Assembly (NCBI GenBank): GCA_013911835.1
Contig: JACESM010000003.1
Coordinates: 1-44,664 of the forward strand
Source: Porphyrobacter sp.
Lineage (GTDB): Bacteria > Pseudomonadota > Alphaproteobacteria > Sphingomonadales > Sphingomonadaceae
Direction of reading: 5' to 3'
Length of the DNA: 44,664 nucleotides
Made by a program: the position numbers and the translations under genes. Positions 6,560-40,059 of this stretch are shown here, piece after piece. The stretch's first letter is position 1. Every line of letters begins with the position of its first letter. The notes below the pieces were generated by a model. That model had not been told where the DNA came from. It made no database searches and was given only the letters and a program-made list of their open reading frames with translations.

Positions 6560-7450
6560 ATGAATTCTGGAAAACCCATTGGGGTAGGGCTCGTTGGCTT
6601 TGAGCCGGGTCGCAGTTGGAGTGCCGTTGCGCACCTGCCGGCACTCGCCGCGCTTACTGAGTACAGGGTCGCGGCGGTCGCAACCACGCGGCATGAGTCT
6701 GCGATGGCGGCTGCCGAAGTTATTGGGTTGAACGCCGATAAGGCCTTCATCTCGGGCGCAGCCTTGGCAACATGTTCAGATGTCGATGTTGTAGCTGTAA
6801 CCGTCAAAGTCCCACACCATCTTGAAATCGTCCGAGCAGCTGTCGCGGCCGGCAAGCACGTCTATTGCGAATGGCCGCTCGGCAATGGGCTGGCAGAAGC
6901 TGAGGAAATGGCAAAGCTCGTAGGGGATGCCGGTGTCCAAGGTGTCGTTGGCCTGCAGGCCCGCTGCTCCCCGACGATCGCCTATTTGCGTGATCTGGTA
7001 TGCGGTGGGGCAATCGGGGAGGTGCTTTCCTCGAACATGATCGGAACCGGCATTCAGTGGGGAGGGTGGGTTGATAAGGCCAATACTTATCTGCTCGATC
7101 CTGCGAACGGAGCCACGCTTCTCACTATCCCATTCGGTCAGCGTTGTTGCCGCTGCGCCCGGTTGCGCAGTCTTCCCTCTCCGGGCTGCTTCGCCTGCGC
7201 CTCGCTAGATTGGGAGCCGGTCGGGCTGGCGGGGAATGGTGAAATCTACAGCTATGTCACTCACCATCACCCGCCCTTGCCGGGCTTCTCGGTGCCGCAC
7301 CCGATCGCTGTTGTGATGATGGAAGAAGGCGTTCGTCTGCTTGGAGCGATGGACGGCACGGATCCGGCCGACCTGGCGATCGGTCGCCGCGTGAGGGCCG
7401 AATTCATCAGGCGCGACGCAGTCGCAGCCTTTCGCTTCTGCCTCCTCTGA
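6560..7450 (+). CDS. Chimeric ORF: Gfo/Idh/MocA-family N-terminal domain fused in frame to a DUF35 Zn-ribbon/OB-fold protein
   Basis: N-terminal part IGVGLVGF...HVYCEWPLGNGLAEAEEMAKLVGDAGVQGVVGLQAR (Gfo/Idh/MocA). From about 7140: RCCRCARLRSLPSPGCFACASLDWEPVGLAGNGEIYSYVTHHHPPLPGF...VAVVMMEEGVRLLG-type OB-fold acyl-CoA-associated domain. Confidence 0.8.
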   Translation: MNSGKPIGVGLVGFEPGRSWSAVAHLPALAALTEYRVAAVATTRHESAMAAAEVIGLNADKAFISGAALATCSDVDVVAVTVKVPHHLEIVRAAVAAGKHVYCEWPLGNGLAEAEEMAKLVGDAGVQGVVGLQARCSPTIAYLRDLVCGGAIGEVLSSNMIGTGIQWGGWVDKANTYLLDPANGATLLTIPFGQRCCRCARLRSLPSPGCFACASLDWEPVGLAGNGEIYSYVTHHHPPLPGFSVPHPIAVVMMEEGVRLLGAMDGTDPADLAIGRRVRAEFIRRDAVAAFRFCLL

Positions 7451-11074: not shown

Positions 11075-12433
11075 TTAGCGCAAGGCGGACAAGATCAACG
11101 CGGTGTCAGGCGCGGTCGGATTCCACGTGGATGCAAGCACACCCTGTTCGCCGAACAAGGATTGTACCGGTTGTGCACTTGTCGCTGCGGCAAACAGGCT
11201 CTCTGCCATAGGATCGTCAACCGCGCAGTTCTTCCCGCGAAGGTGGCTGATCCAAGCGGCGATTGCGCGCAGGATGGCAGGGCATTGCTGCTCCGCCCGC
11301 TGCCGGACGGCGAGTGTTTCGAGCCAACGTTGCGGAATTTTCTGGCTGCCATCCATCGCAATCTGGGCCAGCCGGTGGTTGAGCGCCGGGTTCCTGAAGC
11401 GGTCGATCAGAGATGCTGCATAGGCGGTCAGATCCTGATCCGGCGAAGTGGCGATTGTGGCAGCCGCATCAGCCATCAAGGCTTGGGCTGCTTGGCACAG
11501 GGTCGCATCGGCAATCGCTTCGTGGACATAGGTGTAGCCGGCTTCCAGCCCGCAATAGGCAAGCAACGAATGCGCACCGTTGAGCATCCGCAGCTTGGCC
11601 GTCTCGTAGGGAGCGACATCCGCGACCAATTGGACGCCCGCCGCTTCCCAGCGGGGGCGGCCTGCGGCAAAGCGGTCCTCGATCACCCACTGGCTGAATG
11701 GTTCTGTTACCACCAGCGCGTCGTCGGCAAGGCCGGTGTCGGCAAAGGCGGCGGCGCGATCGGCATCGGTGGTGGCGGGAACAATGCGGTCGACCATGGT
11801 CGATGGGCAGGTGCAGGCTTCGGCAAACCATTCGGCAAGGTCAGTTGCGTGGGCGGCCAGATACTGGCGCATCAGCCGCTCTAATACCGCGCCGTTATGT
11901 GCCAGGTTGTCGCAGGACAGGAGCGTAACGCCGCTCATTCCAGCAGCGCGGCGCTGGCGCATGCCTTCGGTCAGCAGCGGATAGAAGCTGCCCGGCCCCG
12001 CCAGCGCCATGTCGAGCGAGCCGTCTCCGGCACGGCAATAGCCCTTCTCGGTCACGGTGAAGCTGACAATTCGCGTCGCCGGATCGGCAATGGCCGCGAT
12101 CACGGCTTCGGTATCCTGCGGGGCGGTCAGGACATTGCGGATCGCCCCGCCCAGACGGAATCGCGTGCCTTGGCCCGAGCGCTCGGCGATGAGGTAGAAT
12201 CCGTCTTGCGGATTGAGCTGCTCCGCCACACTCGCCGACCGCAGCGAGACCCCGGTGATCATCCAGCCCTCATCGCCAGCGACCATGGCCGCATCGGTAT
12301 ACGCCGCCTGATGTGCGCGGGTGAAGGCGCCTAGGCCGAAATGCACGATCCCGCGCGCCTGTGCACTGCGGTCATAGGCCGGGCGCTGAACCGTATCGGG
12401 CAGTTGGCCAGCTGTGGCGGCGGAAAGCCTCAC
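11075..12433 (-). CDS. uxuB: Mannitol dehydrogenase family / fructuronate reductase
   Basis: GIVHFGLGAFTRAHQAAYTDAAM...FTVTEKGYCR...LLSCDNLAHNGAVLERLM...VDRIVPATTDAD...KLRMLNGAHSLLAY; 4-nt overlap with uxaC. Confidence 0.88.
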   Translation of the reverse strand: MRLSAATAGQLPDTVQRPAYDRSAQARGIVHFGLGAFTRAHQAAYTDAAMVAGDEGWMITGVSLRSASVAEQLNPQDGFYLIAERSGQGTRFRLGGAIRNVLTAPQDTEAVIAAIADPATRIVSFTVTEKGYCRAGDGSLDMALAGPGSFYPLLTEGMRQRRAAGMSGVTLLSCDNLAHNGAVLERLMRQYLAAHATDLAEWFAEACTCPSTMVDRIVPATTDADRAAAFADTGLADDALVVTEPFSQWVIEDRFAAGRPRWEAAGVQLVADVAPYETAKLRMLNGAHSLLAYCGLEAGYTYVHEAIADATLCQAAQALMADAAATIATSPDQDLTAYAASLIDRFRNPALNHRLAQIAMDGSQKIPQRWLETLAVRQRAEQQCPAILRAIAAWISHLRGKNCAVDDPMAESLFAAATSAQPVQSLFGEQGVLASTWNPTAPDTALILSALR

Positions 12434-13833
12434 AGCTTGTAGGCTCGCTTGGCGAGGTTGTAGGCCAGATCGACCGCAAGCTCGGCGGCTTCGTCTTCAC
12501 CCATGCGATGTTCGGCGACCAGCTGCGCGAGCCAGCCGCAGTCCATCCGCCGCGCGACATCGTGACGCGCCGGGATCGACAGGAAGGCGCGGGTATCGTC
12601 GTTGAAGCCGACGGTGTTGTAAAAGCCCGCCGTCTCGGTGGTCATCTCGCGGAAACGGCGCATCCCCTCGGGGCTGTCGTTGAACCACCATGCCGGGCCG
12701 AGCTTCAGGGCCGGATAATGTCCCGCCAGCGGCGCCAGTTCGCGGGCATAGGTCGTCTCGTCCAGCGTGAAGACGATCATGCTGAAGCCGGGGTGGCTAC
12801 CGTAACGCGCCAGCAACGGGCGCAGGCCGTGAACATATTCGCAGGGCAAGGGAATGTCGGCGCCCTTGTCCCGCCCGAAGCGTTCGAACACAGCCGGGTT
12901 GTGGTTGCGAAAGACACCCGGGTGCAGTTGCATCACCAGCCCGTCATCCACGCTCATGCCCGCCATCTCGGTGAGCATCTGGGCGCGGAACAGCTCGGCA
13001 TCTTCCGGGCTGACATCGGCGCGGGTGACGCGGGTGAACAGGGCCTCGGCCTCGGCTGCCGGGAGGTCGGTGGTGCGGGCGCTGAGGTGGCCGTGATCGG
13101 TCGAGGTCGCACCCATCGCGGCGAAGAACGCGCGTCGCTGGCGATGGGCGGCAAGATAGCCCCGCCAGCTGAAGCAATCCTCGCCGGTCATTTCGCTGAA
13201 TCGCGCGAGATTATCGCGAAATCCTTCGAACTCGGGATCAACCACCGCATCAGGACGATAGGCGGTAATCACCCGCCCGCCCCAGCCGCTGTCGCGGATT
13301 GCCTGATGGTGGCGCAATTCGTCGAGCGGGCCTTCGGTGGTGGCGATGACCTCGATATTGTAACGCTCGAACAGCGCACGCGGTCGGAACGCCGGGTTGG
13401 CGAGGGCGGCGGTGATGGTGTCATAATAGTGGTCTGCCGTATCAGCGCCGAGCTTCACGTCGATCCCGAAGCTTGTCCCGAACACCCAATCCAGCCACAT
13501 CCGCGAAGGCGTGCCCCGGAACAAGTGGTAGCGTTCGGCAAACAGCCGCCAGCTTTCGCGCGGATCAGCAGCCGGGTTGCCAATACCAAGGTCTTCCAGC
13601 GCCACACCTTGCGAATGGAGCATCCGGAACACGTAGTGATCGGGGTGCAGCAGCAATTCGCTGGCATTTCCGAAAGGCGCATCGGTTGCCCACCATTCGG
13701 GGTCGGTATGGCCGTGCGGGCTGATGATCGGCAGATCCTTGACCAATTGGTACAGCGTGCGCGCGACAGCGCGGGTGGCCGGATCGGATGGCAACAGGCG
13801 ATCAGGGTGGAGTGCAAGCGACTTGGCGGTCAT
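12430..13833 (-). CDS. uxaC: Glucuronate isomerase
   Basis: PIISPHGHTDPEWWATDAPFGNASELLLHPDHYVFRMLHSQGV...GTSFGIDVKLGADTADHYYDTI. Confidence 0.93.
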   Translation of the reverse strand: MTAKSLALHPDRLLPSDPATRAVARTLYQLVKDLPIISPHGHTDPEWWATDAPFGNASELLLHPDHYVFRMLHSQGVALEDLGIGNPAADPRESWRLFAERYHLFRGTPSRMWLDWVFGTSFGIDVKLGADTADHYYDTITAALANPAFRPRALFERYNIEVIATTEGPLDELRHHQAIRDSGWGGRVITAYRPDAVVDPEFEGFRDNLARFSEMTGEDCFSWRGYLAAHRQRRAFFAAMGATSTDHGHLSARTTDLPAAEAEALFTRVTRADVSPEDAELFRAQMLTEMAGMSVDDGLVMQLHPGVFRNHNPAVFERFGRDKGADIPLPCEYVHGLRPLLARYGSHPGFSMIVFTLDETTYARELAPLAGHYPALKLGPAWWFNDSPEGMRRFREMTTETAGFYNTVGFNDDTRAFLSIPARHDVARRMDCGWLAQLVAEHRMGEDEAAELAVDLAYNLAKRAYKL

Positions 13834-24934: not shown

Positions 24935-26233
24935 TTATTCCGCCGCTTCGCGCGTCTCTTTTTCCATCAGCGCCACTCGCGGGTCATTGGGCGAGACCCA
25001 TTCCTCGCCGATCGCCTGTTCGACCCAAAGTTCGTCCGGCACGTTCTGGGGCCCAATCATGCGGTCGCAGTGCTGGTGGAACCAGTAGATGCGCGATTCC
25101 TGATAGCTCAGCGGCACGCTCCGGAAGCCGCGACTTTCCATCGAGCGCTGGATCGCCTCGCCGAACTGGGTGTCCTCCTGGATGAGCTTGGCCATCGCCC
25201 GCCCGTTGGGTGATGTCTCGTCGGGCACGGTCCACAGGTCGGGCGCCTCGCCGTCACCCCAATCGGGGGCCATGGTGATCAGTTCCAGCCGCGTGGTCGT
25301 TAGCGAGGTTGGCCAGAAGATCAGCGGCGGCACGAAGTAGTTCGACAGCGGCGAGACCCAGTTGGGGAAGATCGTGTAGCTCTGGGTATGGGTGCGGCCC
25401 AACTCGCCCACGGTCTCGATCGCGGTCCAGTTGGGCGCATTCGCGAGCGCGCGCACCGACTCGCGCTGCATCTCGCGCGGCGGGGGTGCGAGCATCCGGC
25501 CATGCCCGCCCGGATAGAGGTGATTGACGTTGCGCTTGGCATCCACCAGCGGCGCGACCGTTTCGGGGTGGATGAAGGGCACATGGTAGACCTCCATGTT
25601 GGCCTCCATCGCCACCTTCCAGTTGCACTGGAGATCGAACGAATGGCGCGCGGCGAGGCGCAGCTTGTCGAAGCCGAACTCCTCCCATTCTTCGGCGATG
25701 GGGCCGAGAAAGTCGCGCAAGCTGGGCGCGCCGTCGTCGAAATTGACGAAGATGAGCTTGCCGAACATCTCGCACCTGACCGGGATCAGGCCGCGCGTGG
25801 CCATGTCGAGATCGACGAAATCCTGCCGCTCGGGCACGCCGATCAGGGTGCCGTCGGTCTTGTAGGTCCAGGCGTGGTAGGGGCACACCAGCCGCCGCGC
25901 GCAGCCCTTGTCCTGCGTCACCACCGGCGCGCCGCGGTGGCGGCAGGTGTTGTAGAAGGCGCGCACCACGCCATCGGTGCCGTGGACGATGATGATCGGA
26001 TCGCCGGCATTGTTCCAGCGCATGAAGCTGCCCGGCTCAGGCACTTCATCGAGATGCGCGGCGAACAGCCAGGTCTTGCGGAAGATGTGCTGCTGTTCGA
26101 GCGCGTAATACGCGGCGCTGGTGTAGCGCGCGGCGGGGACATCGGGCAGCCGCGGGAAGCCCGGCGGGGGCGCCTTGCGTTGCCCCTCCCACTCCATCAG
26201 CGCCTTCAGCGTCGCGATCGTGGCGGAGTCCAT
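24935..26233 (-). CDS. Rieske non-heme iron oxygenase alpha subunit (RO1)
   Basis: Rieske CRHRG...CPYHAWTY; mononuclear Fe motif NWKVAMEANMEVYHVPFIH. Confidence 0.93.
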   Translation of the reverse strand: MDSATIATLKALMEWEGQRKAPPPGFPRLPDVPAARYTSAAYYALEQQHIFRKTWLFAAHLDEVPEPGSFMRWNNAGDPIIIVHGTDGVVRAFYNTCRHRGAPVVTQDKGCARRLVCPYHAWTYKTDGTLIGVPERQDFVDLDMATRGLIPVRCEMFGKLIFVNFDDGAPSLRDFLGPIAEEWEEFGFDKLRLAARHSFDLQCNWKVAMEANMEVYHVPFIHPETVAPLVDAKRNVNHLYPGGHGRMLAPPPREMQRESVRALANAPNWTAIETVGELGRTHTQSYTIFPNWVSPLSNYFVPPLIFWPTSLTTTRLELITMAPDWGDGEAPDLWTVPDETSPNGRAMAKLIQEDTQFGEAIQRSMESRGFRSVPLSYQESRIYWFHQHCDRMIGPQNVPDELWVEQAIGEEWVSPNDPRVALMEKETREAAE

Positions 26234-26264
26234 GGCGTGCCTCTCCCTGCGAATCGTCAGTTAT

Positions 26265-26284
26265 TATGCAACGCATGTTGCACA
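26265..26284. promoter_or_regulatory. TetR-operator-like palindrome TATGCAAC-gcat-GTTGCACA
   Basis: Located in the divergent RO1/RO2 promoter; same half-sites and N4 spacing as 7866-7885. Confidence 0.7.
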
Positions 26285-26342
26285 TAGTCTCGCGGATGGC
26301 TAGACCTGCATTCGGCGATGAATCTTGGGAGAGGGCAGCGCG

Positions 26343-27611
26343 ATGCAAGTGATGGACCTTCAGAAGGGTGCGGCTGCCAGTGCCGAGCGGGTAAGCGCCG
26401 CTGCTCGTGCCACGCTCGAACAGCACGCTGCTGCATTGCTTCGGCACACTGCGGACGGCACTTTCCCGTTGGCGGCGGACGTCATGGCGCTGAATGCCGA
26501 TCACTACACTTCGCCCGAACGGTTCGAGGCCGAGAAGAGGCGCATCTTCCGGCGGGTTCCGGTGGTGCTTGCCGCCTCCTGCGAACTTCCCAAGGCCGGA
26601 GACTACAAGACGCTCGAAGTTGTCGGTATTCCGGTCCTGCTTGTGAGGGACCGGCAAGGCAAAGCACATGCCCTGCTCAACGCCTGCACCCATCGCGGGG
26701 CGGCGGTGGCATCGGGGTGCGGCACGGCGGCGCGCTTCACCTGCCCCTATCACGGCTGGACCTTCGCGCAGGATGGCGCGCTCATTGGCGTTGCAAGTTC
26801 GGTCGATTTCGGTGCCGTCGACAAGGCGATGCTGGCGATGAAACGCTTCCCTGTCGCAGAGCGCGCCGGGCTGATCTGGGCGATCCTCGATCCCGACAGC
26901 CCGCATGACCCTGCCGCCATGCTCGGTGGGAGCGACGAACTCATCGCGGGGTTCGGCCTTGCCGACTGGACGTTGATTGAAAGCCGAACGCTTCACGGCC
27001 CCAACTGGAAGCTCGCCTTCGACGCGCATCTTGAATTCTACCACGTGCCGGTGCTTCACCGCGAGACCTTTGGCCCGGAACGGAGCAACCGCGCCTTCTA
27101 TTTTGCGCAAGGCCCTCACCAGCGGGTGATTGCGCCGCAGGGCCGTCCGGAGGTGACCGCGCCGGACGATCTCTATGCCTTGGGCCGCCTGCCTGCGTCA
27201 CACGAGCCGATCGATCCGCTGCTGATGGGCGAGTGGATTTTGTTTCCCGGCACCTCGATCAACACCTTCTATATTGGCGGCATTCGCTGCGTGCTGGTTT
27301 CGATCGTTGTGCCCGGCGCCGAAGTTGGCACCTCGACAACCACCCAGACCTTCCTTGCCGAAACGCCCCCCGATGATGCGACCCGCGCGGCGATGGGCGA
27401 GATGTGCGCCTTCCTTGCGCATGTGGTGGGCGATGAAGACCTGCCCACTTCAGCGTTCCAGCAAAAGGTCATGGCGACCGGCCTCGTTGGCGAAGTGCGC
27501 TTCGGCCGCAACGAGGGCGGCTTGCAGCACTTTCACAAGTGGCTCGACATGGTGATCGCGGCGGACGACACCGCTCTTTCCGACTTTCTGGGAGCCACAT
27601 GCCAGCCGTAA
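26343..27611 (+). CDS. Rieske non-heme iron oxygenase alpha subunit (RO2)
   Basis: CTHRGAAVASGCGTAARFTCPYHGWTF; NWKLAFDAHLEFYHVPVLH; RBS gggagaggg upstream of the ATG at 26343. Confidence 0.9.
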   Translation: MQVMDLQKGAAASAERVSAAARATLEQHAAALLRHTADGTFPLAADVMALNADHYTSPERFEAEKRRIFRRVPVVLAASCELPKAGDYKTLEVVGIPVLLVRDRQGKAHALLNACTHRGAAVASGCGTAARFTCPYHGWTFAQDGALIGVASSVDFGAVDKAMLAMKRFPVAERAGLIWAILDPDSPHDPAAMLGGSDELIAGFGLADWTLIESRTLHGPNWKLAFDAHLEFYHVPVLHRETFGPERSNRAFYFAQGPHQRVIAPQGRPEVTAPDDLYALGRLPASHEPIDPLLMGEWILFPGTSINTFYIGGIRCVLVSIVVPGAEVGTSTTTQTFLAETPPDDATRAAMGEMCAFLAHVVGDEDLPTSAFQQKVMATGLVGEVRFGRNEGGLQHFHKWLDMVIAADDTALSDFLGATCQP

Positions 27612-28204
27612 TCGATCACGACGCCCGCCGCACAGCGCTCGCCGAGGTCGCTGCCGATCTGCTGGCAAGCGGCGGCGCCGAGGCCGCAACCGTGCGCGCC
27701 GTTGCCGCAGCGGCTGGCTTCAGCACCAAGGCGGTGACGCATTATTTCCCCGATAAGCGCGCGCTGATGCTGCTGACCTATCGCCACGCGGCCCTGAGTT
27801 CGCAGGCGCGCACCGATGCCTCGCAGCCAGCTGATGGCGGCGACATCAAGGCATTGCTGCACGCTCTGCTGCCGACCGATCCGAAGGTGGAGCGAGATTG
27901 GCGGGTGTGGTTCTCCTTCTGGGGGCTCGCTATCGCCGACCCCGAGTTCGCCGCCGAACAACGTGAACGAATGCGCGATTTCGTTAGCCAGATCGCTGCC
28001 ATACTCGCGGCCGATCCAGACTGCGCCCATCTGACTGCGGAGCAACGTCCCGTCATCGCCAGCGCGCTGCTAGCCGCGCTGTTCGGGACCGTCACCCAGG
28101 CGATTTTCGATCCCGAAGCTTGGCCCGCAGCACGGCAGAGCGATGCGATTGACGAGGCTCTCATGCGGATTGCGGGTATGGTTTTTGATCACAAGGAGGG
28201 ATGA
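27599..28204 (+). CDS. TetR-family transcriptional regulator (TetR-1)
   Basis: N-terminal HTH: LAEVAADLLASGGAEAATVRAVAAAAGFSTKAVTHYFPDKRALMLLTYRHA. Confidence 0.88.
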   Translation: MPAVIDHDARRTALAEVAADLLASGGAEAATVRAVAAAAGFSTKAVTHYFPDKRALMLLTYRHAALSSQARTDASQPADGGDIKALLHALLPTDPKVERDWRVWFSFWGLAIADPEFAAEQRERMRDFVSQIAAILAADPDCAHLTAEQRPVIASALLAALFGTVTQAIFDPEAWPAARQSDAIDEALMRIAGMVFDHKEG

Positions 28205-29350: not shown

Positions 29351-29661
29351 ATGTTTTCATTCGACATCCCGAAAGATGTTTCGAGATCCTCCCGTCCGTT
29401 CAGTCGCCGCCATGCCTCAACAAAGGTTCTGAGTTGGTACATTCCTGCCAATCGCCACTGCGTGCTTAATCGACCGCGGAGGCCGAAACCGACGGATCGT
29501 GAAGCAGCGATAATGGCACTGCCGTAAGCCCGACATGCAGTAAGTGACCCCGTATATTCCGCTAATCCCGAAGGATTTTTGCTACAATTCCTGCCGTTTT
29601 GACAGGTTACGCTTGGACTGCAATCTGCCATCCAAAGCTCGACTGGGAGCGTGAAAACAGC

Positions 29662-30465
29662 ATGACCACAGGAATACTATCGGGACGGGTCGCATTCGTC
29701 ACCGGCGGACTGCGCGGGATCGGCCTTGCCTGCGCGGCGCGGCTGGCCGCCGATGGGGCGGCAGTGGTGGTCTGCGATCTTGACGATCCGGCGGCGGCCG
29801 CGCCGGTGCTCGCCCCGCTGGGCACGGCTGTTAGTTACATCCGGGCGGATGTCACCAGCGAGGCCGATTGGCGGGCCGCCCACGATTTTGTGGTGGAGCG
29901 GCACGGCGCGCTGCATATCCTCATCAACAATGCCGGGACCGATCTGACCGGCGCGGTCGAGGCTATCGCCTTGGACGATTGGCGGCGGATCATGGCGGTC
30001 AATGTTGACGGGGTGTTCCTCGGCACGCGGATCTTCACCCCCTTGCTGGCGGCGAGCGGCGCGGGCGTTGCCGGGGGATCGAGCATCATCAACGTCAGTT
30101 CGATCATGGGGTTGGTCGGGATGAGCGAGGTGTCCGCTTACAACACCAGCAAGGGCGCAGTGCGGATGTTTACCAAGGGCATCGCGATGGAATTCGCCGC
30201 CAAGAGAATGCCGATCCGCGCCAATTCGCTGCATCCCGGCTTTGTCGAAACCCCGCTGCTGCACGCCGGGTTCGAACGCTGGGTTACCAAGGGGATTGCC
30301 GACAATGCCCAGGTGCTGATCGACGGGATGAACGCGGTGACCCCGATGGGGCGACTGGGACAGGCGGACGAAATCGCCGGGCCGGTGGCCTTCCTCGCCG
30401 GGCCGGACAGCAGTTTCATGACCGGGGCAGAGCTCGTGATCGACGGGGGGTGGACGGCGCAATGA
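29662..30465 (+). CDS. SDR-family oxidoreductase
   Basis: VAFVTGGLRGIGLACAARLAADGA...ILINNAG...YNTSKGAVRMFTKGIA...ELVIDGGWTAQ. Confidence 0.93.
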   Translation: MTTGILSGRVAFVTGGLRGIGLACAARLAADGAAVVVCDLDDPAAAAPVLAPLGTAVSYIRADVTSEADWRAAHDFVVERHGALHILINNAGTDLTGAVEAIALDDWRRIMAVNVDGVFLGTRIFTPLLAASGAGVAGGSSIINVSSIMGLVGMSEVSAYNTSKGAVRMFTKGIAMEFAAKRMPIRANSLHPGFVETPLLHAGFERWVTKGIADNAQVLIDGMNAVTPMGRLGQADEIAGPVAFLAGPDSSFMTGAELVIDGGWTAQ

Positions 30466-31241
30466 CGATCAATCTGAACAATGTGGTCGCGGTGGTCACC
30501 GGGGCCAATGGCGGCATCGGCAGCGCGATGGTGACCGCGATGGCGGCTGCGGGCGCGCGAGTGGTCGCCAGCGATTTGCAGCCGAGCACCAGCCTGACGG
30601 ATTGCGAACATTATCTGCCGCTTGATGTGACAAGCCCGGACAGCTGGCGCGACCTCACCGATTTTATGGCGCGCGAATATGGCCGGGTCGATGCGCTGGT
30701 CCACAATGCTGGAATCTCGATCGTGACCAAGTTCGAAGACACCCCGCTGGCCGAATTTCACCGGGTCAACGCGGTCAATGTCGATAGCGTGATTATCGGC
30801 ACGCAGGCGCTTTTGCCGCTGTTGAAGGTGGGCGGTCAGGGCCGTGCGGGCGGGGCCAGCGTGGTCAATGTCTCCAGCGTCGGAGGTCTGCGCGGCGCGC
30901 CGTTCAACGCCGCCTATTGCGCCAGCAAGGCGGCGGTCGCGATGCTGAGCAAGTGCATGGGGGCCGAGTTTGCCGCGCTGGGATACCCGGTGCGGGTCAA
31001 CAGCCTGCATCCTGGCGGGGTCGATACCGGAATGCTGGGCGGCATCTTCCAACGCTATGTCGATCTGGGCGTCATGCCCGATGTGGGCACCGCAATCGCT
31101 GGCACGGCGGCGCGCCACCCGATCGGGCGGATGGGCCGCCCGGAAGAAATCGCCAGCGGCGCGGTTTTCCTGTGTTCGGAAGCGGCCAGTTTCATGACCT
31201 GCGATGAATTGGTGATCGACGGCGGCTTTGCCTCGATCTAG
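30462..31241 (+). CDS. SDR-family oxidoreductase
   Basis: ATGA overlap; VVAVVTGANGGIGSAMVTAMAAAGA...YCASKAAVAMLSKCMG...ELVIDGGFASI. Confidence 0.93.
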   Translation: MTINLNNVVAVVTGANGGIGSAMVTAMAAAGARVVASDLQPSTSLTDCEHYLPLDVTSPDSWRDLTDFMAREYGRVDALVHNAGISIVTKFEDTPLAEFHRVNAVNVDSVIIGTQALLPLLKVGGQGRAGGASVVNVSSVGGLRGAPFNAAYCASKAAVAMLSKCMGAEFAALGYPVRVNSLHPGGVDTGMLGGIFQRYVDLGVMPDVGTAIAGTAARHPIGRMGRPEEIASGAVFLCSEAASFMTCDELVIDGGFASI

Positions 31242-31657
31242 CTCGCAAGCGGCAGCATCGGGGTGACGGTGTAGTGACGGCATTGCCACCCATCCGGCGT
31301 CTCGACGCATTCCATCCGGTACCGCACATGCATGGTGACCGAAGTGCCATCCCTGCCATGGCCCGCGCCGATGACATAGGCAGTCATTGCGCCCATCGCG
31401 CCATCCCAGCTTTCGGGCCGGAAATTGCTGATCGCGTGGAAACTGTGGCTGAGCGCGCCGAACACCCCTTCGTAAAAGGTGCGCAAACCGGCCCGATCCG
31501 GGATTACCGGCACGCCGATGGCGCTCATATCCGTCACCGCGTCCGGGGTGAAGACCGCCAGCAACCGGTCGATGTCAGCCAAGCTGTCGACGTTGTGGCA
31601 ATGATCGACCATCAACCGCTCAATCGCGGTGCGGACATGATCGGGCATGGGGTTCAT
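31238..31657 (-). CDS. NTF2/SnoaL-like protein
   Basis: IERLMVDHCHNVDSLADIDRLLAVFTPDAVTDMSAIG...HAISNFRPESWDG; small alpha+beta NTF2-like pattern. Confidence 0.75.
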   Translation of the reverse strand: MNPMPDHVRTAIERLMVDHCHNVDSLADIDRLLAVFTPDAVTDMSAIGVPVIPDRAGLRTFYEGVFGALSHSFHAISNFRPESWDGAMGAMTAYVIGAGHGRDGTSVTMHVRYRMECVETPDGWQCRHYTVTPMLPLAS

Positions 31658-31661
31658 CGCT

Positions 31662-32996
31662 CTAACTTGCCGCAGGCGGGGTCGGCTCGCCCAGCACCAT
31701 GTCATTGAGCAATTCGTGGAACCGCTGAATGCGCCTTTCCTGATAGCTTAGGATGCTGCCCTTGAAACCGCGTGATGCTAGCCCCTGCTGTTGGGTCGAT
31801 CCGATCGACAGATCCTGATCGGCGACAAATCCAAGGCTCACCCCGTCGCCATAGACCGAGTGGCGCTGCACCGCGTCGTGTTCCAACGGGATCGGCCCGA
31901 CCGGGCTTTCGACGTCGCTCATGCCGGCGACCGGGGGGTAAAGGCACCAGTGCTGGAAAATGCATTTAGCAGGGTCGGTCGGGTGCGGTTCGGTGCGCAG
32001 GATCTGGCACTGTTCGGGCGACATGGTGAGCGTGAGGTTGGGAAACAGCGTGCAGTGGAAATAGTCCACCAGCTGCTGATCAGTCATGGAATCATAATTG
32101 GTGAACCCGCGCGCCGGGCCCAGCGTGCGCTTGGCGTGAATGATCGCCTCGCGGATGTCGTTGGGGCGCCCGGCATAGGCATCGGGATCGACCCCCCATG
32201 CCCGGGCAATATCATCGAGCGGAGCGGGCACATTGTCGAATTGGCGGCGGGTGGTGGCCTGATGGCCCTTCATCCACATCGCGTTGTGCCCGCTTTCGTA
32301 CATTTCGAACAGTGTGTCATCCAGCCCGTCATTGATGAAGGTCGACAATTCGGGGTGGATTGTGGGCAGGTGATAGCTTTCGTTGAAATTGTCGCGGATG
32401 ATCTTCCAGTTGAACGGGGCATCGCACGACAGGTTCATTGCCCGCACCCAGGTTTCCAGCCCATATCCGGCGAGCTTTTCGGGCAGCGGGGCGAGCCATT
32501 CGATCAGCGGCGCGGCATTATCGTCCATGCACCAGAACACGAACGGCCCCCAGGTCTCGCACCGCAGTTCGGTGAGATGCACCTTGCCGCAGGGGCTGCC
32601 GCCGGGGAAATCATCGGGGTCCTGCACCTTGATCAGCGTGCCTGACGCATCAAACTGCCAGCCGTGATAAGAACAGGTGATCCGCGGGGACGACGCCACA
32701 TCGCCCAGCACCAGCCGGTTCCCGCGGTGCGGGCAGGCGTTGTAGAACGCCCGCACGGTGCCATCGGCCTGGCGCACCATGATCACCGATTCCTCGCCGA
32801 AATTGTGGCGCACGGTGTCGCCTTCTTCCTCGAATTCGGCGGTGACTGCGCCCAGATGCCAGACGCGCGGCCACAGATTGGCAAATTCCTTGTCCATCCA
32901 ATCGCGCGCGACATAGCGTTCCCCCGTGATCACATCGCCGCGCACCGGCTGATCGGCTCCTTCGGCGTATCGTGCCGCGCCATGCTGGATGTTCAT
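31662..32996 (-). CDS. Rieske non-heme iron oxygenase alpha subunit (RO3)
   Basis: FYNACPHRGNRLVLGDVASSPRITCSYHGWQF; NWKIIRDNFNESYHLPTIH. Confidence 0.93.
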   Translation of the reverse strand: MNIQHGAARYAEGADQPVRGDVITGERYVARDWMDKEFANLWPRVWHLGAVTAEFEEEGDTVRHNFGEESVIMVRQADGTVRAFYNACPHRGNRLVLGDVASSPRITCSYHGWQFDASGTLIKVQDPDDFPGGSPCGKVHLTELRCETWGPFVFWCMDDNAAPLIEWLAPLPEKLAGYGLETWVRAMNLSCDAPFNWKIIRDNFNESYHLPTIHPELSTFINDGLDDTLFEMYESGHNAMWMKGHQATTRRQFDNVPAPLDDIARAWGVDPDAYAGRPNDIREAIIHAKRTLGPARGFTNYDSMTDQQLVDYFHCTLFPNLTLTMSPEQCQILRTEPHPTDPAKCIFQHWCLYPPVAGMSDVESPVGPIPLEHDAVQRHSVYGDGVSLGFVADQDLSIGSTQQQGLASRGFKGSILSYQERRIQRFHELLNDMVLGEPTPPAAS

Positions 32997-33035
32997 TGAT
33001 CGCAATCCTCTGCCTGTAATGGTGCCGCGCGCTTA

Positions 33036-33059
33036 AAAACCGGCATCTTTGCCTGTTTT
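33036..33059. promoter_or_regulatory. Operator candidate O1: AAAACCGGCA-tctt-TGCCTGTTTT
   Basis: Palindrome in the RO3/TetR-2 divergent promoter; same motif at 33798, 36723 and 36768. Confidence 0.75.
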
Positions 33060-33142
33060 ATCGGGCGCGCGGCCCCGATCAAGCTCAGTTTTTAATTAGT
33101 TTGCCGTGACATTGCCCTGTTCTTGGCCCTAATGTCGCGGGC

Positions 33143-33799
33143 ATGGCAAGTTCGCTCCCGGCTCCGCTGCCCCACGATGATCCCGCGCCGCCGCGCTGGC
33201 AGCAGCGCAAAGCCGCCGCCACTCGCAAGCTGATCCTTGATGCGGCGACCGATTGTCTGGTCGAAGGCGGCTATGCCCGGCTGACCACGGTTGAGGTGCT
33301 GAAACAGGCGAATGTTTCGCGCGGGGCGATGCACCACCACTTCACCAGCCGTGCCGAACTGGTCAGCGCGCTGATCGACCATGTGCTGCACAAACGGCTC
33401 GAACGGTTCCTGTCGGATTACCTGTCGGCGCTAAAAGACACCAATCCCGCCCACGCCATCGCGGTTGCCACCGATGTGCACTGGCAAAGCATGAAGACGC
33501 CGGAATTTACCGCCTTTCTCGAACTGGTGATGGCGGCGCGCACCGATCCGGAATTGTCGGCCTTGCTGGTGCCGGCCACGCGCGAATTTGAACGCACGTG
33601 GATCAGCGAAGTCGAGCGCGCGATCCCGCAGTGGTCGGGGGCATCAGATCAAATGCTGCTGGCCAATGATGTCGCCGCCGCGCTGCACCTTGGCCTGCTG
33701 ATCAACCGCCCCTTCATCGAAGATCCCGCCCGGCGCGAAGCCGTGCGCGACACGCTGGTGGCGCTGGTGAAGGACATTTTCGCGCAGTCCAAGGGATAA
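33143..33799 (+). CDS. TetR-family transcriptional regulator (TetR-2)
   Basis: AATRKLILDAATDCLVEGGYARLTTVEVLKQANVSRGAMHHHFTSRAELVSALIDHVL. Confidence 0.93.
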   Translation: MASSLPAPLPHDDPAPPRWQQRKAAATRKLILDAATDCLVEGGYARLTTVEVLKQANVSRGAMHHHFTSRAELVSALIDHVLHKRLERFLSDYLSALKDTNPAHAIAVATDVHWQSMKTPEFTAFLELVMAARTDPELSALLVPATREFERTWISEVERAIPQWSGASDQMLLANDVAAALHLGLLINRPFIEDPARREAVRDTLVALVKDIFAQSKG

Positions 33800-33821
33800 A
33801 ACCGGCACGATTGCCTGATTT
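33798..33821. promoter_or_regulatory. Operator candidate O2: AAAACCGGCA-cgat-TGCCTGATTT
   Basis: Overlaps the TetR-2 stop codon and precedes RO4; same motif and N4 spacing as O1. Confidence 0.75.
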
Positions 33822-33894
33822 TCCGCCGAAGTGATAGTTGCCGCGCCCGCGCGCTGATCCACAATAACCGGCGTTGACCGGTGGGAGCAGGCGG

Positions 33895-35238
33895 ATGACA
33901 CAGCAGCATCAAATCCCAACGCCCTTGAACGGGCGCGATCCCGCCCATCTGCGCGGCGATCCGATCACCGGCGACCGCTACCATTCGGCCGATTTTGCCA
34001 AGGCCGAATGGGAGGGTCTCTGGACCCGAATCTGGCATATTGCCGGGCGGCTTGCCGACATTCCCGAACCGGGCGATTTCCTGGTCCATGATTTCATGAA
34101 GGAATCGGTGATCGTGGTGCGGCAGGATGACGGCACGATCCGCGCCTTCTACAACGCTTGCGGCCATCGGGGGATGCGGCTGGTGGGCGAATCCAGCTCG
34201 GTCGGGGCGTTTACCTGTCCCTATCACGGCTGGCGCTGGGGCACGGACGGGGTGCTGCAATATGCCCAAGACCCGCAGGATTTCCCCCAAGGCAACCCCT
34301 GCGGCAAGCTGCGGCTGAAGGAATTGCGCTGCGATAGCTGGGGCGGGTTTGCGTGGTACACGATGGACGATGCCGCGCCGTCGCTGGCCGATTATCTTGA
34401 TCCGATCCCGGCGCTTTACCGCAATTACGCGATGGACACCGCCGTGCGCGTGGCGTGGTACCGGATCGAACTGAACGCCAACTGGAAGTTCGTCACCGAC
34501 AATTTCTCCGAAAGCTACCACACCCGCACCGCCCATCCGCAGGTGCCGCCGTGGATCGATCAGGACGTCGATTCGGCGCGGCATGAAATGTGGCCGCAAG
34601 GGCATGGCCGCACCGTGCAACCGATGCGCCCATCGCTGACTGATCGGCCTGCCAGCGGCACCAACGGCGTGTTCGCCGCGATCCTGCAAGCATGGGACAT
34701 CGATCCCGAAAGCTATGCTAGTTACGATGATTTCGTGGTGCAGGGCTGGCACGATCTGAAGGCGGCCAAGCGGCGGCTGTGGCAGGCGCGCGGCTATTAC
34801 CACTACGAACACCTGAGCGACGAAGAAATCACCGATAGCCCGCACACGGTAATCTTCCCCAATGTGACGATCAGTTTTCTGCCCGATAACCTCGTCTTTT
34901 TCCGCAGTGAACCGCACGCGACCGATCCCGAAAAATGCTATTTCGATCTGTGGTGCATGGCCTTTCCCGTGGCGGGGCAGACCGAGGTTGAATCGATCAT
35001 GGCCGGGGTGCGCCCGCTGCGCGAGGCCGAGGTCTGCGAACACCGCAAGTTCGATAATGGCCGGGGCATTCCCGAATTGGCCGGACAGATCGTCTATCAG
35101 GATATGGAACTGGCCGAAGGGATGCAGGCCGGGATGCATTCGCGCGGGTACAGCGACGCCTATCTCGCCGCGCAGGAAACCCGGGTGCGGCATTTCCACG
35201 AGGTATTGAACGATTGGATTGCGGGCCGCCGCCCGTAA
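33895..35238 (+). CDS. Rieske non-heme iron oxygenase alpha subunit (RO4)
   Basis: FYNACGHRGMRLVGESSSVGAFTCPYHGWRW; NWKFVTDNFSESYHTRTAH. Confidence 0.93.
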   Translation: MTQQHQIPTPLNGRDPAHLRGDPITGDRYHSADFAKAEWEGLWTRIWHIAGRLADIPEPGDFLVHDFMKESVIVVRQDDGTIRAFYNACGHRGMRLVGESSSVGAFTCPYHGWRWGTDGVLQYAQDPQDFPQGNPCGKLRLKELRCDSWGGFAWYTMDDAAPSLADYLDPIPALYRNYAMDTAVRVAWYRIELNANWKFVTDNFSESYHTRTAHPQVPPWIDQDVDSARHEMWPQGHGRTVQPMRPSLTDRPASGTNGVFAAILQAWDIDPESYASYDDFVVQGWHDLKAAKRRLWQARGYYHYEHLSDEEITDSPHTVIFPNVTISFLPDNLVFFRSEPHATDPEKCYFDLWCMAFPVAGQTEVESIMAGVRPLREAEVCEHRKFDNGRGIPELAGQIVYQDMELAEGMQAGMHSRGYSDAYLAAQETRVRHFHEVLNDWIAGRRP

Positions 35239-35251
35239 CAGGAGAAAAATC

Positions 35252-35698
35252 TTGCCCTTTTCCGGCCCCTTGGAAGATCGCCTCGCCATCCGCGAGTTGA
35301 TGAACACCCATGCCCACGGCGTGATGACCCGCGATGCGGACATATGGGGATCAATCTGGGCGGATGATGCCGCGTGGTTCCTGCCCGAATATCCCGATCT
35401 CGGCACTTTCGAAGGCAAGGACGTGATTGTCGCATCGTGGGTCGAATCGATGAAGGTTTACGGCCTCGATAACATGGCCAAGCCGATGGTCTATTTCATG
35501 GAGCCGGGCAGCATCGTGGTGGACGGCGACCGCGCCGCCGCCGTCGCCTACACCCACGAATTGTATCAGCACCCCGAAACCGGCAAACTGGTGCGCGGCG
35601 CGGGGCGATATGACGACGAGCTTGAAAAGCGCGATGGCCGCTGGGTCTTCGTCCGGCGTGCCTACCGCATCCTGCACGAACAGATCAGCGACTACTGA
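35252..35698 (+). CDS. NTF2/SnoaL-like protein
   Basis: LEDRLAIRELMNTHAHGVMTRDADIWGSIWADDAAWFLPEYPDLGTFEGKDVIVASW; probable TTG start at 35252 behind ggagaaaaat. Confidence 0.8.
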   Translation: MPFSGPLEDRLAIRELMNTHAHGVMTRDADIWGSIWADDAAWFLPEYPDLGTFEGKDVIVASWVESMKVYGLDNMAKPMVYFMEPGSIVVDGDRAAAVAYTHELYQHPETGKLVRGAGRYDDELEKRDGRWVFVRRAYRILHEQISDY

Positions 35699-35702
35699 AG
35701 CC

Positions 35703-36704
35703 CTATATTTTCACGATCACCTTGCCGGTGTTCTGCCCGGTCATCAGCCGGGTGAAGGCGGCGAGCACCTTGTCGATCCCCTGCGTCTCGTCGAATTCAC
35801 CCAGCAACTGCCCTGCATCATACAGCGCGCGCAGTTCGGGGTAATAATCGCGCCCCTCGGCCATAAAATCGGGCAGGAAAATGCCGCGGATCGTCAACCG
35901 CTTCATCAGCACCTGATCGAACCGGGCCGGGCCGGGTGCGCCGCTTGTGGTGGTGTAACCTTCGATCAGCCCGCAAATCCCGATGCGGCCCTGCAAGGCC
36001 ATGTTGGGCAAGGCGGCATCGAGCAACGCACCGCCGACATTTTCGAAATAGGCATTGATACCGCCGCCGATCTTGGCGAGTTCGGCGGCCAAGTCCTGCT
36101 TGCGGTAATTGATCGCGGTGTCGATCCCCAGCGTGTCGGTCAGCCAGGCGCATTTATCGTCCGATCCGGCAATGCCGATCACCCGGCATCCCATCGCGCG
36201 GGCAATCTGGCAGGCAATGCTGCCGGTGGCCCCGGCGGCGGCGGACACCAGCACCGTTTCCCCGGCCGTGATGCCCAGCACATCGACCAGCCCGCACTGC
36301 GCGGTCCAACCGTTCAGTCCGAGCACGCCGAAATGATCGCGGATATCGGCCACATCCTCGTCCAGCCGGACCAAGCCCGACAGCGCCGGATCGACCAGCG
36401 AATGGGTCGCCCAATGGCCGAACCCGCGCACCAGATCGCCCGGCGCAAACCCGGCATGGCATGATTGCAACACCCGGCCGATGAATTGCCCCAGCATCGG
36501 CGTGCCAAGCGGGATCGGCGGCGAATAGCCATCCTCACGCGCGCTCATCCACACTCGCACGCCGGGGTCCATCGATAGGTACTGCGCTTCGACCAGCACC
36601 TGCCCTTCGCCGGGCGGAGCGGTCGCTTCTGCCACTAACGAGAGCGCAGCGGCATAATCATGCCCTTCGGGACGCGCGTCCAAACGCCAGAAATGTCGCT
36701 GCAT
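35703..36704 (-). CDS. Zinc-free MDR-family NADP-dependent oxidoreductase (CurA/LTB4 dehydrogenase-like)
   Basis: EAQYLSMDPGVRVWMS...GETVLVSAAAGATGSIACQIARAMGCRVIGIAGSDDKCAWL...FENVGGALLDAALPNMALQGRIGICGLIEGY; start MQRHFWRL at 36704. Confidence 0.9.
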   Translation of the reverse strand: MQRHFWRLDARPEGHDYAAALSLVAEATAPPGEGQVLVEAQYLSMDPGVRVWMSAREDGYSPPIPLGTPMLGQFIGRVLQSCHAGFAPGDLVRGFGHWATHSLVDPALSGLVRLDEDVADIRDHFGVLGLNGWTAQCGLVDVLGITAGETVLVSAAAGATGSIACQIARAMGCRVIGIAGSDDKCAWLTDTLGIDTAINYRKQDLAAELAKIGGGINAYFENVGGALLDAALPNMALQGRIGICGLIEGYTTTSGAPGPARFDQVLMKRLTIRGIFLPDFMAEGRDYYPELRALYDAGQLLGEFDETQGIDKVLAAFTRLMTGQNTGKVIVKI

Positions 36705-36722
36705 GATGATCCCTCGCTTACC

Positions 36723-36740
36723 ACCGGCACCTATGCCGGT
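36723..36740. promoter_or_regulatory. Operator candidate O3: ACCGGCA-ccta-TGCCGGT
   Basis: Perfect 7-bp arms with N4 spacer, in the MDR/TonB-receptor divergent region; same core as O1, O2 and O4. Confidence 0.65.
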
Positions 36741-36767
36741 TTGCCGCGCTGTCATAACCTAATACAT

Positions 36768-36791
36768 AAAACAGGCGCGTTTGCCGGTTTT
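36768..36791. promoter_or_regulatory. Operator candidate O4: AAAACAGGCG-cgtt-TGCCGGTTTT
   Basis: Same motif and N4 spacing as O1/O2, upstream of the TonB receptor gene. Confidence 0.75.
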
Positions 36792-36863
36792 CTGCTGCTA
36801 GCAGAAGGTCACGGCCCCGATCCACACTTGCAAGCCAGAGGGCCGAAAACGAGGGGATTTTTC

Positions 36864-39338
36864 ATGCGGCTTCTGCGTTCCGTCCTGCTTGCGTCCAGCG
36901 TCCTTGGAGCCGCCGGCCTTATGCCCGCCACCGCTTACGCTCAGCAGGCTGACGAGGCCGAGTTGCAGACGCAGAGCGGCGGCTTGACCGAAATCGTGGT
37001 TACCGCCCGCAAGCGCGAAGAAAGTGTTCAAGACGTGCCGGTTGCCGTCACCGCTTTTTCCGAACAATTGATCCTTGATCGCGACATCACCAGTGTCGAA
37101 AAGATCGCATCCATCGCTCCCAACTTCAACGTCGGGCGCGCATCCAACGGGTCGGGCGCGCAGTTGACCTTGCGCGGGATTGGTTCATCCTCAACCTCGA
37201 TCGGGATTGAACAATCGGTCGCGGTGGTGGTCGACGGTGCCTATTACGGGCAAGGCAGGGTCATCAACGAAGGCTTCTTCGATCTGCAACGGGTCGAAGT
37301 GCTCAAAGGCCCGCAGGCGCTGTTCTTTGGCAAGAATGCCACTGCGGGCCTGATCTCGTTCACCACAAATGATCCGGGCAATGATCCCGAATTCATCACC
37401 CGCGCAGGTTACGAATTCAACGGCGAACAATGGCGCGTCGAAGGCATCGCCTCCGTGCCGCTGGGCGATAATGCCGGGGTGCGGCTTGCCGTGCGCTATT
37501 CCAAGGCCGAAGGCGGATTGTACGACAATATCCAGATTGATCGGCCCTACACTACGCTCGACATCGTCGATCTGGGCGCAGGCGGCGACGGCAATCCGAT
37601 TGTCAGCAACGCCACCCCGGTCACCAGCGACCAGCCGGGCGAAGAAGAATTCCTGAGCCGCCTGACCTTCAAGGTCACCCCGTCGGATCAGCTGACGATC
37701 AACCTCAAAGGATCGTATAACTACAACCGCAACAACAACAGTTCGTTCAATTACGCTCCCTTCGCCTGCGGATTGGCGACCGGGATCAGCCAGTTGACGG
37801 GGTTCCCCTGTGCGGCCGATTTCATCACCCGGCAGAACAACCTGCCGACTGACATCGCCGCCACGGTGCCGTTCGCGCCTGCCGATGGTCGGCCGTTCAA
37901 CCGTTATGAAAGTTTCGCCGCCAATGGCGCGATCGATTACGAAGCGGACAATTTCGTTCTGTCGTCGGTCACCAATTATCAGTGGAACAACAACCGTTTT
38001 CTGTGCGTGTGCGATTTCCAGACCGGCAACAATTCGGGCACCTGGGCGACCGAAGACACCACCTGGGAAGCGTTTTCGCAGGAATTGCGGCTGCGCACGG
38101 ATTTCGACGGTCCGTTCAATTTCATGCTCGGCGCGCTGTATCAGGACACGCGGCGTGATTTTGATCAGTTCATCCTGTTTGCCGGCCTGCGTAACAGCGC
38201 CGCCGCGCCGCAGAACGTGTTCCTTGCCACCACCAAGAACAGCTTTACCTCGGGTGAGACATTCTCGGTCTTCGGTCAGGTGACCTTCGCCATCACGCCG
38301 CAACTCGAACTGGCAGCGGGCGGGCGGTATACCGACGAAAGCAAGGACAGCTTTTTCACCCAGCCTTACAACAATCCCGGCCTGACCTTCATTTTCCGCG
38401 ATCAGGCTTCGGCCGATGGGTTGGGCGAAGTCACCGCCAGCCAATCGTTTGAAGACTTCGCGCCGGAAGTCACCTTGTCGTACAAGCCCAACGACGATCT
38501 GCTACTGTTTAGCGCTTACAAGACCGGGTACAAATCGGGCGGGTTTTCCAACGGCGGGATCAATTCGGCGTTTTCGCCCGATCCGTTGGGCGATCTCACC
38601 TTCGATCCTGAAACGGTCGAAGGGTTCGAATTCGGGGTGAAATCCACTTTGGCGGCCAATCAGCTGCGGCTCAACCTGACGCTGTTCACCTATGACTACA
38701 GCGATTTGCAGGTCGATTTCTTCAACTCGCCGATCTTCGCCTTCCAGACCCTGACCGCCGATGCGCGGACCCGCGGGGTTGAAGTGGATTTCGAATATGC
38801 CCCGAATGCGATTGACGGGCTGAACCTGCGCGGGGCGGTCAATTATACTGATGCGAAATACACCGATTTCCCGCAGGCCCCGTGCTTTGCCGGGCAGACA
38901 ATTGCAGAAGGCTGCACGCTGGCGGGCGGGCTGAGCGCAAGGCAGGATCTGGGCGGCACACCGCTGTCCGTCGCTCCGGAATGGACCGGCACTTTGGGCG
39001 CAGCCTATACCGCGCCGATCGGTGACGACTTCGAATTGGGGCTGAATGCCGATGCGCGTTATTCCGACAGCTATCTGGCATCGGGCTTCGGCAATCCCTT
39101 GAGCGCGCAGGACAGCTACGTCACGCTGGATGCCGGTGTCCGGTTTGGCGCGGCGGATGGCAATTGGCAGATTGCGCTGATCGGCAAGAACCTCACCAAT
39201 GAATTCTACGTTACGGGTGCGGTCGATGGGCCGTCCACCGGCTCTGGCACCGGCACGGCAAACGGCGTTCGCGCCGATCAGCTCGGGTTCGGCAACCTGC
39301 CGCGCACGGTGCAGGTGGAATTGACTAAGCGGTTCTGA
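36864..39338 (+). CDS. TonB-dependent receptor
   Basis: Signal peptide MRLLRSVLLASSVLGAAGLMPATAYAQ; TEIVVTARKREESVQDVPVAVTAFSEQ; RVEVLKGPQALFFGKNATAGLISFTTNDP; C-terminal ...RTVQVELTKRF. Confidence 0.95.
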   Translation: MRLLRSVLLASSVLGAAGLMPATAYAQQADEAELQTQSGGLTEIVVTARKREESVQDVPVAVTAFSEQLILDRDITSVEKIASIAPNFNVGRASNGSGAQLTLRGIGSSSTSIGIEQSVAVVVDGAYYGQGRVINEGFFDLQRVEVLKGPQALFFGKNATAGLISFTTNDPGNDPEFITRAGYEFNGEQWRVEGIASVPLGDNAGVRLAVRYSKAEGGLYDNIQIDRPYTTLDIVDLGAGGDGNPIVSNATPVTSDQPGEEEFLSRLTFKVTPSDQLTINLKGSYNYNRNNNSSFNYAPFACGLATGISQLTGFPCAADFITRQNNLPTDIAATVPFAPADGRPFNRYESFAANGAIDYEADNFVLSSVTNYQWNNNRFLCVCDFQTGNNSGTWATEDTTWEAFSQELRLRTDFDGPFNFMLGALYQDTRRDFDQFILFAGLRNSAAAPQNVFLATTKNSFTSGETFSVFGQVTFAITPQLELAAGGRYTDESKDSFFTQPYNNPGLTFIFRDQASADGLGEVTASQSFEDFAPEVTLSYKPNDDLLLFSAYKTGYKSGGFSNGGINSAFSPDPLGDLTFDPETVEGFEFGVKSTLAANQLRLNLTLFTYDYSDLQVDFFNSPIFAFQTLTADARTRGVEVDFEYAPNAIDGLNLRGAVNYTDAKYTDFPQAPCFAGQTIAEGCTLAGGLSARQDLGGTPLSVAPEWTGTLGAAYTAPIGDDFELGLNADARYSDSYLASGFGNPLSAQDSYVTLDAGVRFGAADGNWQIALIGKNLTNEFYVTGAVDGPSTGSGTGTANGVRADQLGFGNLPRTVQVELTKRF

Positions 39339-39380
39339 TTTCAGGTAATTCTGTTCCCGATGCTATAGCGGGAGCAAAAC

Positions 39381-39409
39381 GGGGGTGGGTTTAAGCCCGC
39401 CCCCTTTTT
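39381..39409 (+). terminator. Rho-independent terminator
   Basis: gggggtgggtttaagcccgccccc followed by ttttt, downstream of the TonB receptor gene. Confidence 0.8.
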
Positions 39410-39810
39410 CATTCGGAGCTCATGACCGGAATGTCGCCCGGCCCTGGCGCCTCGTCGGGAAGAGCCACGGCGATCATCCCGCCCTCCACGCGCACATCGA
39501 AGCTGCGCAACGCGGCATAGGCGCCGCCGATGCATTCCCCCGTATTGATCTTGAAGCGCGCACCATGCAGCGGACACATCACCCCCCCGCTTCTGATGCG
39601 CCCTGGTGAAAGCAAGGCCCCTTGATGTGGGCACCTGTCGTTATAGGCGAAATGAACGCCCTCTTTCTCGACGATCAGAACACGCCATCCGGCAATGGCG
39701 GCGGCGAATTTGCCATCAGCGGGAAAATCATCCTGCCGACAGACTTCATGCCAAGTCGGATTCAAGCCTTGTTCCTTCTGTTTGCGCGTCGACGGCGATC
39801 CATCTCCCAT
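39409..39810 (-). CDS. Rieske [2Fe-2S] ferredoxin
   Basis: VLIVEKEGVHFAYNDRCPHQGALLSPGRIRSGGVMCPLHGARFKINTGECIGG: Rieske CPH...CPLH motif in a small protein. Confidence 0.9.
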   Translation of the reverse strand: MGDGSPSTRKQKEQGLNPTWHEVCRQDDFPADGKFAAAIAGWRVLIVEKEGVHFAYNDRCPHQGALLSPGRIRSGGVMCPLHGARFKINTGECIGGAYAALRSFDVRVEGGMIAVALPDEAPGPGDIPVMSSE

Positions 39811-40059
39811 TGGTATCCGGCTCGTATGCTGGGAAAATTGAGAGGGTCAGGTGCTGCTCGTCGGTATCGCACGACGCCACCATGCCATCGCTCCCAATGC
39901 TGCCGTTGAGCTTTCCATCACCTGCGGTCATAGGCGGGGCTGATGCGCGATCCCGCAAGCGGCATCTCGGCTCCGGGCGAAAGCAGATGATCACATTGGC
40001 GTTCGCAAACAACCGGTTCTGGGTCGAGAGCCATCGAAGTTATATTGTCGATAGGACTT

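Follow-up and report, generated by a model that had tools for sequence, protein, structure and literature searches.

KstR and KstR2, which govern steroid catabolism, and CymR, which responds to p-cymene and p-cumate, are TetR-family local repressors of catabolic clusters. All three are autoregulated TetR proteins, built of a helix-turn-helix and a ligand domain, that act on divergent targets through a palindromic operator, and KstR also covers uptake genes. A comparable system is predicted in a 44,664-nucleotide stretch of Porphyrobacter sp. (contig JACESM010000003.1, the window), in which the TetR-family gene tetR2 lies among genes for two Rieske ring-hydroxylating oxygenase alpha subunits (RO3 and RO4), a zinc-type NADP-dependent dehydrogenase/reductase (MDR) and a TonB-dependent outer-membrane receptor, with four copies of a palindromic operator between them. 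The known part is the general type, a local repressor of the TetR family with an operator between divergent genes, and the new part is the regulon: its operator sequence and lineage differ from those of KstR, KstR2 and CymR, and its predicted targets are genes for Rieske oxygenases and TonB receptors of Sphingomonadaceae.

In Sphingobium sp. SHPJ-2, loss of the repressor PheR raises an oxygenase operon together with TonB and TonB-dependent receptor genes (PMC13273656). PheR thus resembles the TetR2 system as a sphingomonad regulator tied to both kinds of gene, but it belongs to the IclR family, its core is GCAACG with no shared operator, and its TonB effect is transcriptomic (PMC13273656). A literature search (subscription papers and preprints lay outside its scope) turned up no account of this regulator, its operator or the gene cluster, in agreement with the earlier note on this DNA, which had supposed the regulon to be undescribed; nor was the substrate of the cluster found in the papers searched. 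In its main text, a paper on tomato steroidal glycoalkaloids names neither an oxygenase nor TetR nor a TonB-dependent receptor, and a pinoresinol paper has Rieske in its reference list only and neither TetR nor TonB.

TetR2 is likely an autoregulated, ligand-responsive local repressor of a four-site regulon. The earlier note had reported four palindromes with shared half-sites and an invariant 4-nt spacer, and each was found in place with a spacer of 4. O1 (AAAACCGGCA-tctt-TGCCTGTTTT, 33036–33059, the 22-mer occupying 33037–33058) lies between the divergent RO3 and tetR2 genes, and O2 (AAAACCGGCA-cgat-TGCCTGATTT, 33798–33821) overlaps the probable -35 element of the RO4 promoter and, as had been noticed, the tetR2 stop codon, its first two bases being the last two of TAA (33797–33799). 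O3 (ACCGGCA-ccta-TGCCGGT, 36723–36740) lies 17 nt upstream of the MDR start, and O4 (AAAACAGGCG-cgtt-TGCCGGTTTT, 36768–36791) in front of the TonB receptor gene. The consensus is a 22-bp palindrome, AAACMGGCA-N4-TGCCKGTTT. A common pattern does run through the four copies, but the half-sites are not identical (CCGGCA or CAGGCG on the left, TGCCTG or TGCCGG on the right), and O3, with the A-tract missing on one side, is clearly weaker.

The four palindromes are real and not a product of chance. Genomes were scanned with patterns, and the window and cluster regions with matrices. A matrix built from other species only, excluding the window and its 98% sister, ranked exactly O1, O4, O2 and O3 first in the window (scores of 29.7, 27.9, 27.1 and 18.3, respectively), with 7.8 in fifth place and a best score of 15.1 in 40 dinucleotide shuffles. 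The same four were the only zero-mismatch occurrences in the window of the core ACMGGCRN4TGCCKGW. Across the organism's own genome (2.67 Mb, 73% complete), the longer pattern AAMCMGGCRN4YGCCKGKTT with up to two mismatches occurred at five places, four of them O1–O4, rather than at the random frequency that would have spoken against the regulon; the fifth (C230:4423) looks like chance, and the reversed control pattern also gave five. The core ACMGGCRN4YGCCKGT with one mismatch was not diagnostic (33 places in the genome versus 23 with the control). Since the core falls close to background once mismatches are allowed, only the full 22-mer is diagnostic.

The operator adjoins tetR2 and, in sequence comparison, is co-conserved with its orthologues. 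TetR2 homologues were collected from relatives, the family, named genomes and plasmids, and those bearing an adjacent operator spanned 41–98% identity across the family. The position of O1 was aligned and conserved in three relatives (L065, L033 and L068), and that of O4 in L033. Among 43 loci with a TetR2 homologue, a site with a high score preceded tetR in 27, almost always at -91 to -155, and in 12 a further high-scoring copy followed the gene, usually at its stop codon or immediately behind it; the E. tepidarius copy at the stop codon (L033:5720) scored just under the threshold used. As these copies recur in relatives, placing an operator at the tetR stop codon is a conserved layout. The spacer was equally fixed: each spacer other than 4 turned up in only 0–2 of the 43 loci, whether upstream or downstream of tetR, and 23 cluster loci gave 16 exact core matches with a spacer of 4 but 0 or 1 for each of the spacers 0, 2, 3, 5, 6 and 8.

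TetR2 (218 aa, encoded at 33143–33799 on the forward strand) has an N-terminal TetR_N helix-turn-helix (PF00440, E = 5e-13, residues 31–77), and its AlphaFold2 model is a confident all-helical TetR fold of nine helices (pLDDT 91.3). The closest PDB folds found by Foldseek were Rv0078, EthR2 and EilR, all TetR proteins of known structure (DNA-bound in the case of Rv0078 and EilR) that share the fold but only 18–24% identity, with different ligands and operators. TetR2 fell below the cut-offs of the named NCBIfam TetR subfamilies (ScbR, BetI, AcrR, RutR and others), the best scores being 53 bits for ScbR (cut-off 150) and 40 for BetI (cut-offs 118 and 201). Its recognition helix (S59-RGAMHHHF67) comprises residues 60–66, H64 being invariant in an alignment of 21. 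On sequence comparison, the operator tracks this helix (SRGAMHHHF): homologues with SRGA(M/V)H(H/Y)H had an associated site in 28/28 cases, upstream of tetR in 27, while in the 28th (G092) the site (L080:2267) lies upstream of an SDR gene in a probable SDR-tetR operon. Homologues with another recognition helix had the operator in 1/15 (27/28 versus 1/15, Fisher p = 3e-9).

We infer that a TetR2 dimer would bind the 22-bp palindrome at four places, repressing tetR2 itself together with the divergently transcribed RO3-SnoaL unit from O1, the RO4-SnoaL unit from O2, and the divergent MDR and TonB receptor genes from O3 and O4. The geometry is clearest at O2, where the exact hexamer GATAGT (33833–33838 on the forward strand in the window) follows 12–13 nt past the operator end in 8 of 10 aligned species whose flanking bases differ; the ninth has GATAGT followed by A, and the tenth has diverged. 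GATAGT is the probable -10 element of RO4, and TTGCC of the right O2 half-site, 16–17 nt and GATAGT plausibly form a promoter whose -35 a repressor would cover. A hydrophobic substrate or intermediate of the pathway would probably bind the helical C-terminal domain and free the dimer from DNA, so that uptake and the first oxidations would be switched on together.

Alternatively, TetR2 might bind these sites but mainly activate, or act differently from site to site. Most sites lie 84–155 bp from the tetR start, and a search for promoters to go with O1 gave no convincing sigma-70 promoter, both of which favor activation. O2, however, overlaps the probable -35, the classical position for a repressor, and among characterized TetR proteins whose local targets are divergent, most repress, making predominant or site-dependent activation unlikely, if the best surviving of the alternatives.

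Both operator positions between the divergent MDR and TonB receptor genes are homologous between species, but their strength turns over. The MDR-side and TonB-side sites are, respectively, weak and strong in the window, decayed and strong in E. tepidarius, and strong and decayed in G384. Because the strong position alternates between species, one good site seems sufficient.

Several points weigh against this reading of TetR2 as a local repressor. The MDR-side operator O3 is weak and redundant, and TetR2 could act as an activator at some sites. Distant targets could be missed in a genome of this completeness. The counts behind the helix association were made by eye from tables, and that association is confounded by phylogeny, as the helix-bearing homologues are the closer relatives. 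Finally, a site with at most one mismatch was present in 9/28 TetR2-positive family genomes versus 15/373 TetR2-negative ones (p = 7e-6; the reversed-pattern control gave 0 across the 401). That excess speaks for the regulon, but the near matches in the 15 TetR2-negative genomes, four of one genus sharing a site beside SDR genes, mean that related regulators may read similar half-sites. The four (L116, L117, L118 and L120) carry the conserved near match AAAAAGGCA-N4-TGCCTGTTT, which suggests another regulator with similar half-sites.

These near matches, together with the presence of TetR1 (27539–28204) 5 kb away, are what would favor a genuine operator read by another protein, such as TetR1 or an unlinked TetR or MarR regulator, with TetR2 a neighbor or co-reader. 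Against this, the site accompanies TetR2 orthologues in many genera despite changing neighbor genes and follows the TetR2 recognition helix, TetR2 has sites on both flanks, and none was found by TetR1 or its neighbors. We regard a different reader as improbable, slightly more so than activation. TetR1, which has a BetI-like C-terminal domain, belongs with RO1 and RO2 to a second block beside TonB1 (24935–28204) that lacks an operator copy and is presumably a separate regulon.

The palindromes might also be transcribed hairpins or bidirectional intrinsic terminators, with O2 ending the tetR2 transcript. They do have the form of inverted repeats around a 4-nt loop, flanked by A- and T-tracts, and one copy stands at the end of tetR2, but the other copies sit in divergent promoter regions, a terminator scan of 31200–39900 listed none of O1–O4, and no Rfam match was found. 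Moreover, the arms showed no compensatory changes over 42 sites: position 5 was RNA-pairable in 25/42, compared to 25.2 in shuffled arms, A or C being tolerated independently in each half-site. Arms that vary independently indicate a DNA site bound by a dimer, each monomer contacting one half-site, rather than an RNA hairpin. We therefore rejected the RNA reading, whose likelihood we put as very slight. A chance resemblance of GC-rich palindromes was likewise rejected, its likelihood being negligible: although the short core with three mismatches is barely enriched in the window (79 places versus 58 expected), the full 22-mer is confined to the block, conserved and spacer-specific.

The proposed targets can be placed on corrected gene starts. 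The starts called automatically for the MDR (36755) and TonB receptor (36660) open reading frames extend across the operators; judged by ribosome sites and homologues, MDR begins at 36704, the TonB receptor at 36864, RO3 at 32996 and RO4 at 33895. RO3 (31662–32996, reverse strand), whose orthologues are about 72–96% identical and present in most relatives' clusters, is followed by the SnoaL/NTF2-like protein A (31238–31705, reverse; start probably internal). RO4 (33895–35238, forward), with orthologues of 73–94% identity in many relatives, is followed by the SnoaL/NTF2-like protein B (35252–35698, forward). MDR (35703–36704, reverse) is CurA-like but below the CurA cut-off, and the TonB-dependent receptor (36864–39338, forward) has plug and barrel domains. 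The earlier note placed an operator before every transcription unit, which holds for RO3, tetR2, RO4, MDR and the TonB receptor but not for the conserved SDR1-SDR2 pair (29599–31241, forward) or the conserved Rieske-type ferredoxin (39409–39810, reverse), which have none in the window.

The link between uptake and oxygenases recurs elsewhere. A matrix scan of 21 regions, with a matrix that includes many of the tetR-flanking sites, placed high-scoring sites next to the starts of tetR2, RO3, RO4, other Rieske oxygenase, TonB, SDR (the one downstream of tetR), MDR, ferredoxin and other cluster genes, the exceptions being L071:19059 and L083:1410, whose neighbors could not be named from the gene calls. 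What faces tetR varies: it is RO3 in E. tepidarius, in G384 and in the window, a TonB receptor gene in many others (G023, G078, G180, pNL2 and N. meiothermophilum), and another cluster gene in the remainder. This recurrence of targets across relatives makes the association of uptake and Rieske genes a recurrent theme and not a local accident, and the proposed TetR2-Rieske-TonB regulon gains from it, with the operator recurring at fixed positions beside orthologues of 41–98% identity and copies before Rieske, TonB, SDR and ferredoxin genes. Two operator matches far from tetR2, near TonB-receptor genes (L096, G180:C1:1488607; L097, G098:C1:1384520), are possible unlinked targets.

The regulon had also been called compact, a description that applies locally, to this Porphyrobacter species and those closest to it; in other genomes, regulator and operator occur in larger clusters with further Rieske oxygenases, P450, AMP-ligase, EthD, ThuA and SDR proteins, and with acyl-CoA dehydrogenases nearby. 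Among culturable relatives, Erythrobacter tepidarius DSM 10594 has the block as found in the window, and Novosphingobium aromaticivorans DSM 12444 the larger cluster. RO3 and RO4 are mostly 73–88% identical between genera, a degree of conservation far above that of TetR2 at those loci. No equivalog reached its cut-off to name a substrate: RO3 and RO4 fell below those of the glycine-betaine, carnitine and aromatic Rieske equivalogs, GbcA being best with 95 and 116 bits versus 670. The cluster composition hints at a substrate that is large and hydrophobic, perhaps an isoprenoid or a steroid-like compound. Tentatively, and at somewhat less than even chances, TetR2 may govern, throughout the family, an undescribed sphingomonad pathway that handles natural products of this kind; operator and recognition helix would have stayed fixed while species swapped the genes under their control (those for SnoaL, SDR, the TonB receptor and various Rieske oxygenases).

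Close to the TetR2/Rieske cluster, in the window (11075–13833) as well as on plasmid pNL2 (L085, 25723–28502), there is a gene of the mannitol dehydrogenase family together with uxaC (glucuronate isomerase), which could reflect a glucuronide substrate or coincidence. Elsewhere in the window (6560–7450), one reading frame has the unusual make-up of a GFO/IDH/MocA oxidoreductase fused to an OB domain of the ChsH2 type at its C terminus.

Taken as a whole, the operators and their regulator very probably form a repressor system that is ordinary in mechanism but so far undescribed, and that couples nutrient uptake to breakdown. For the multi-Rieske clusters of Sphingomonadaceae, including those of model strains such as Novosphingobium aromaticivorans, it supplies a defined regulator, a list of targets and an operator matrix that has been tested. 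Pathway members in other genomes can be predicted from the operator, and TetR2 could be converted into a reporter for substrate screening. With a system that is family-wide and an operator that is well defined, orphan multi-Rieske clusters are opened to direct test.

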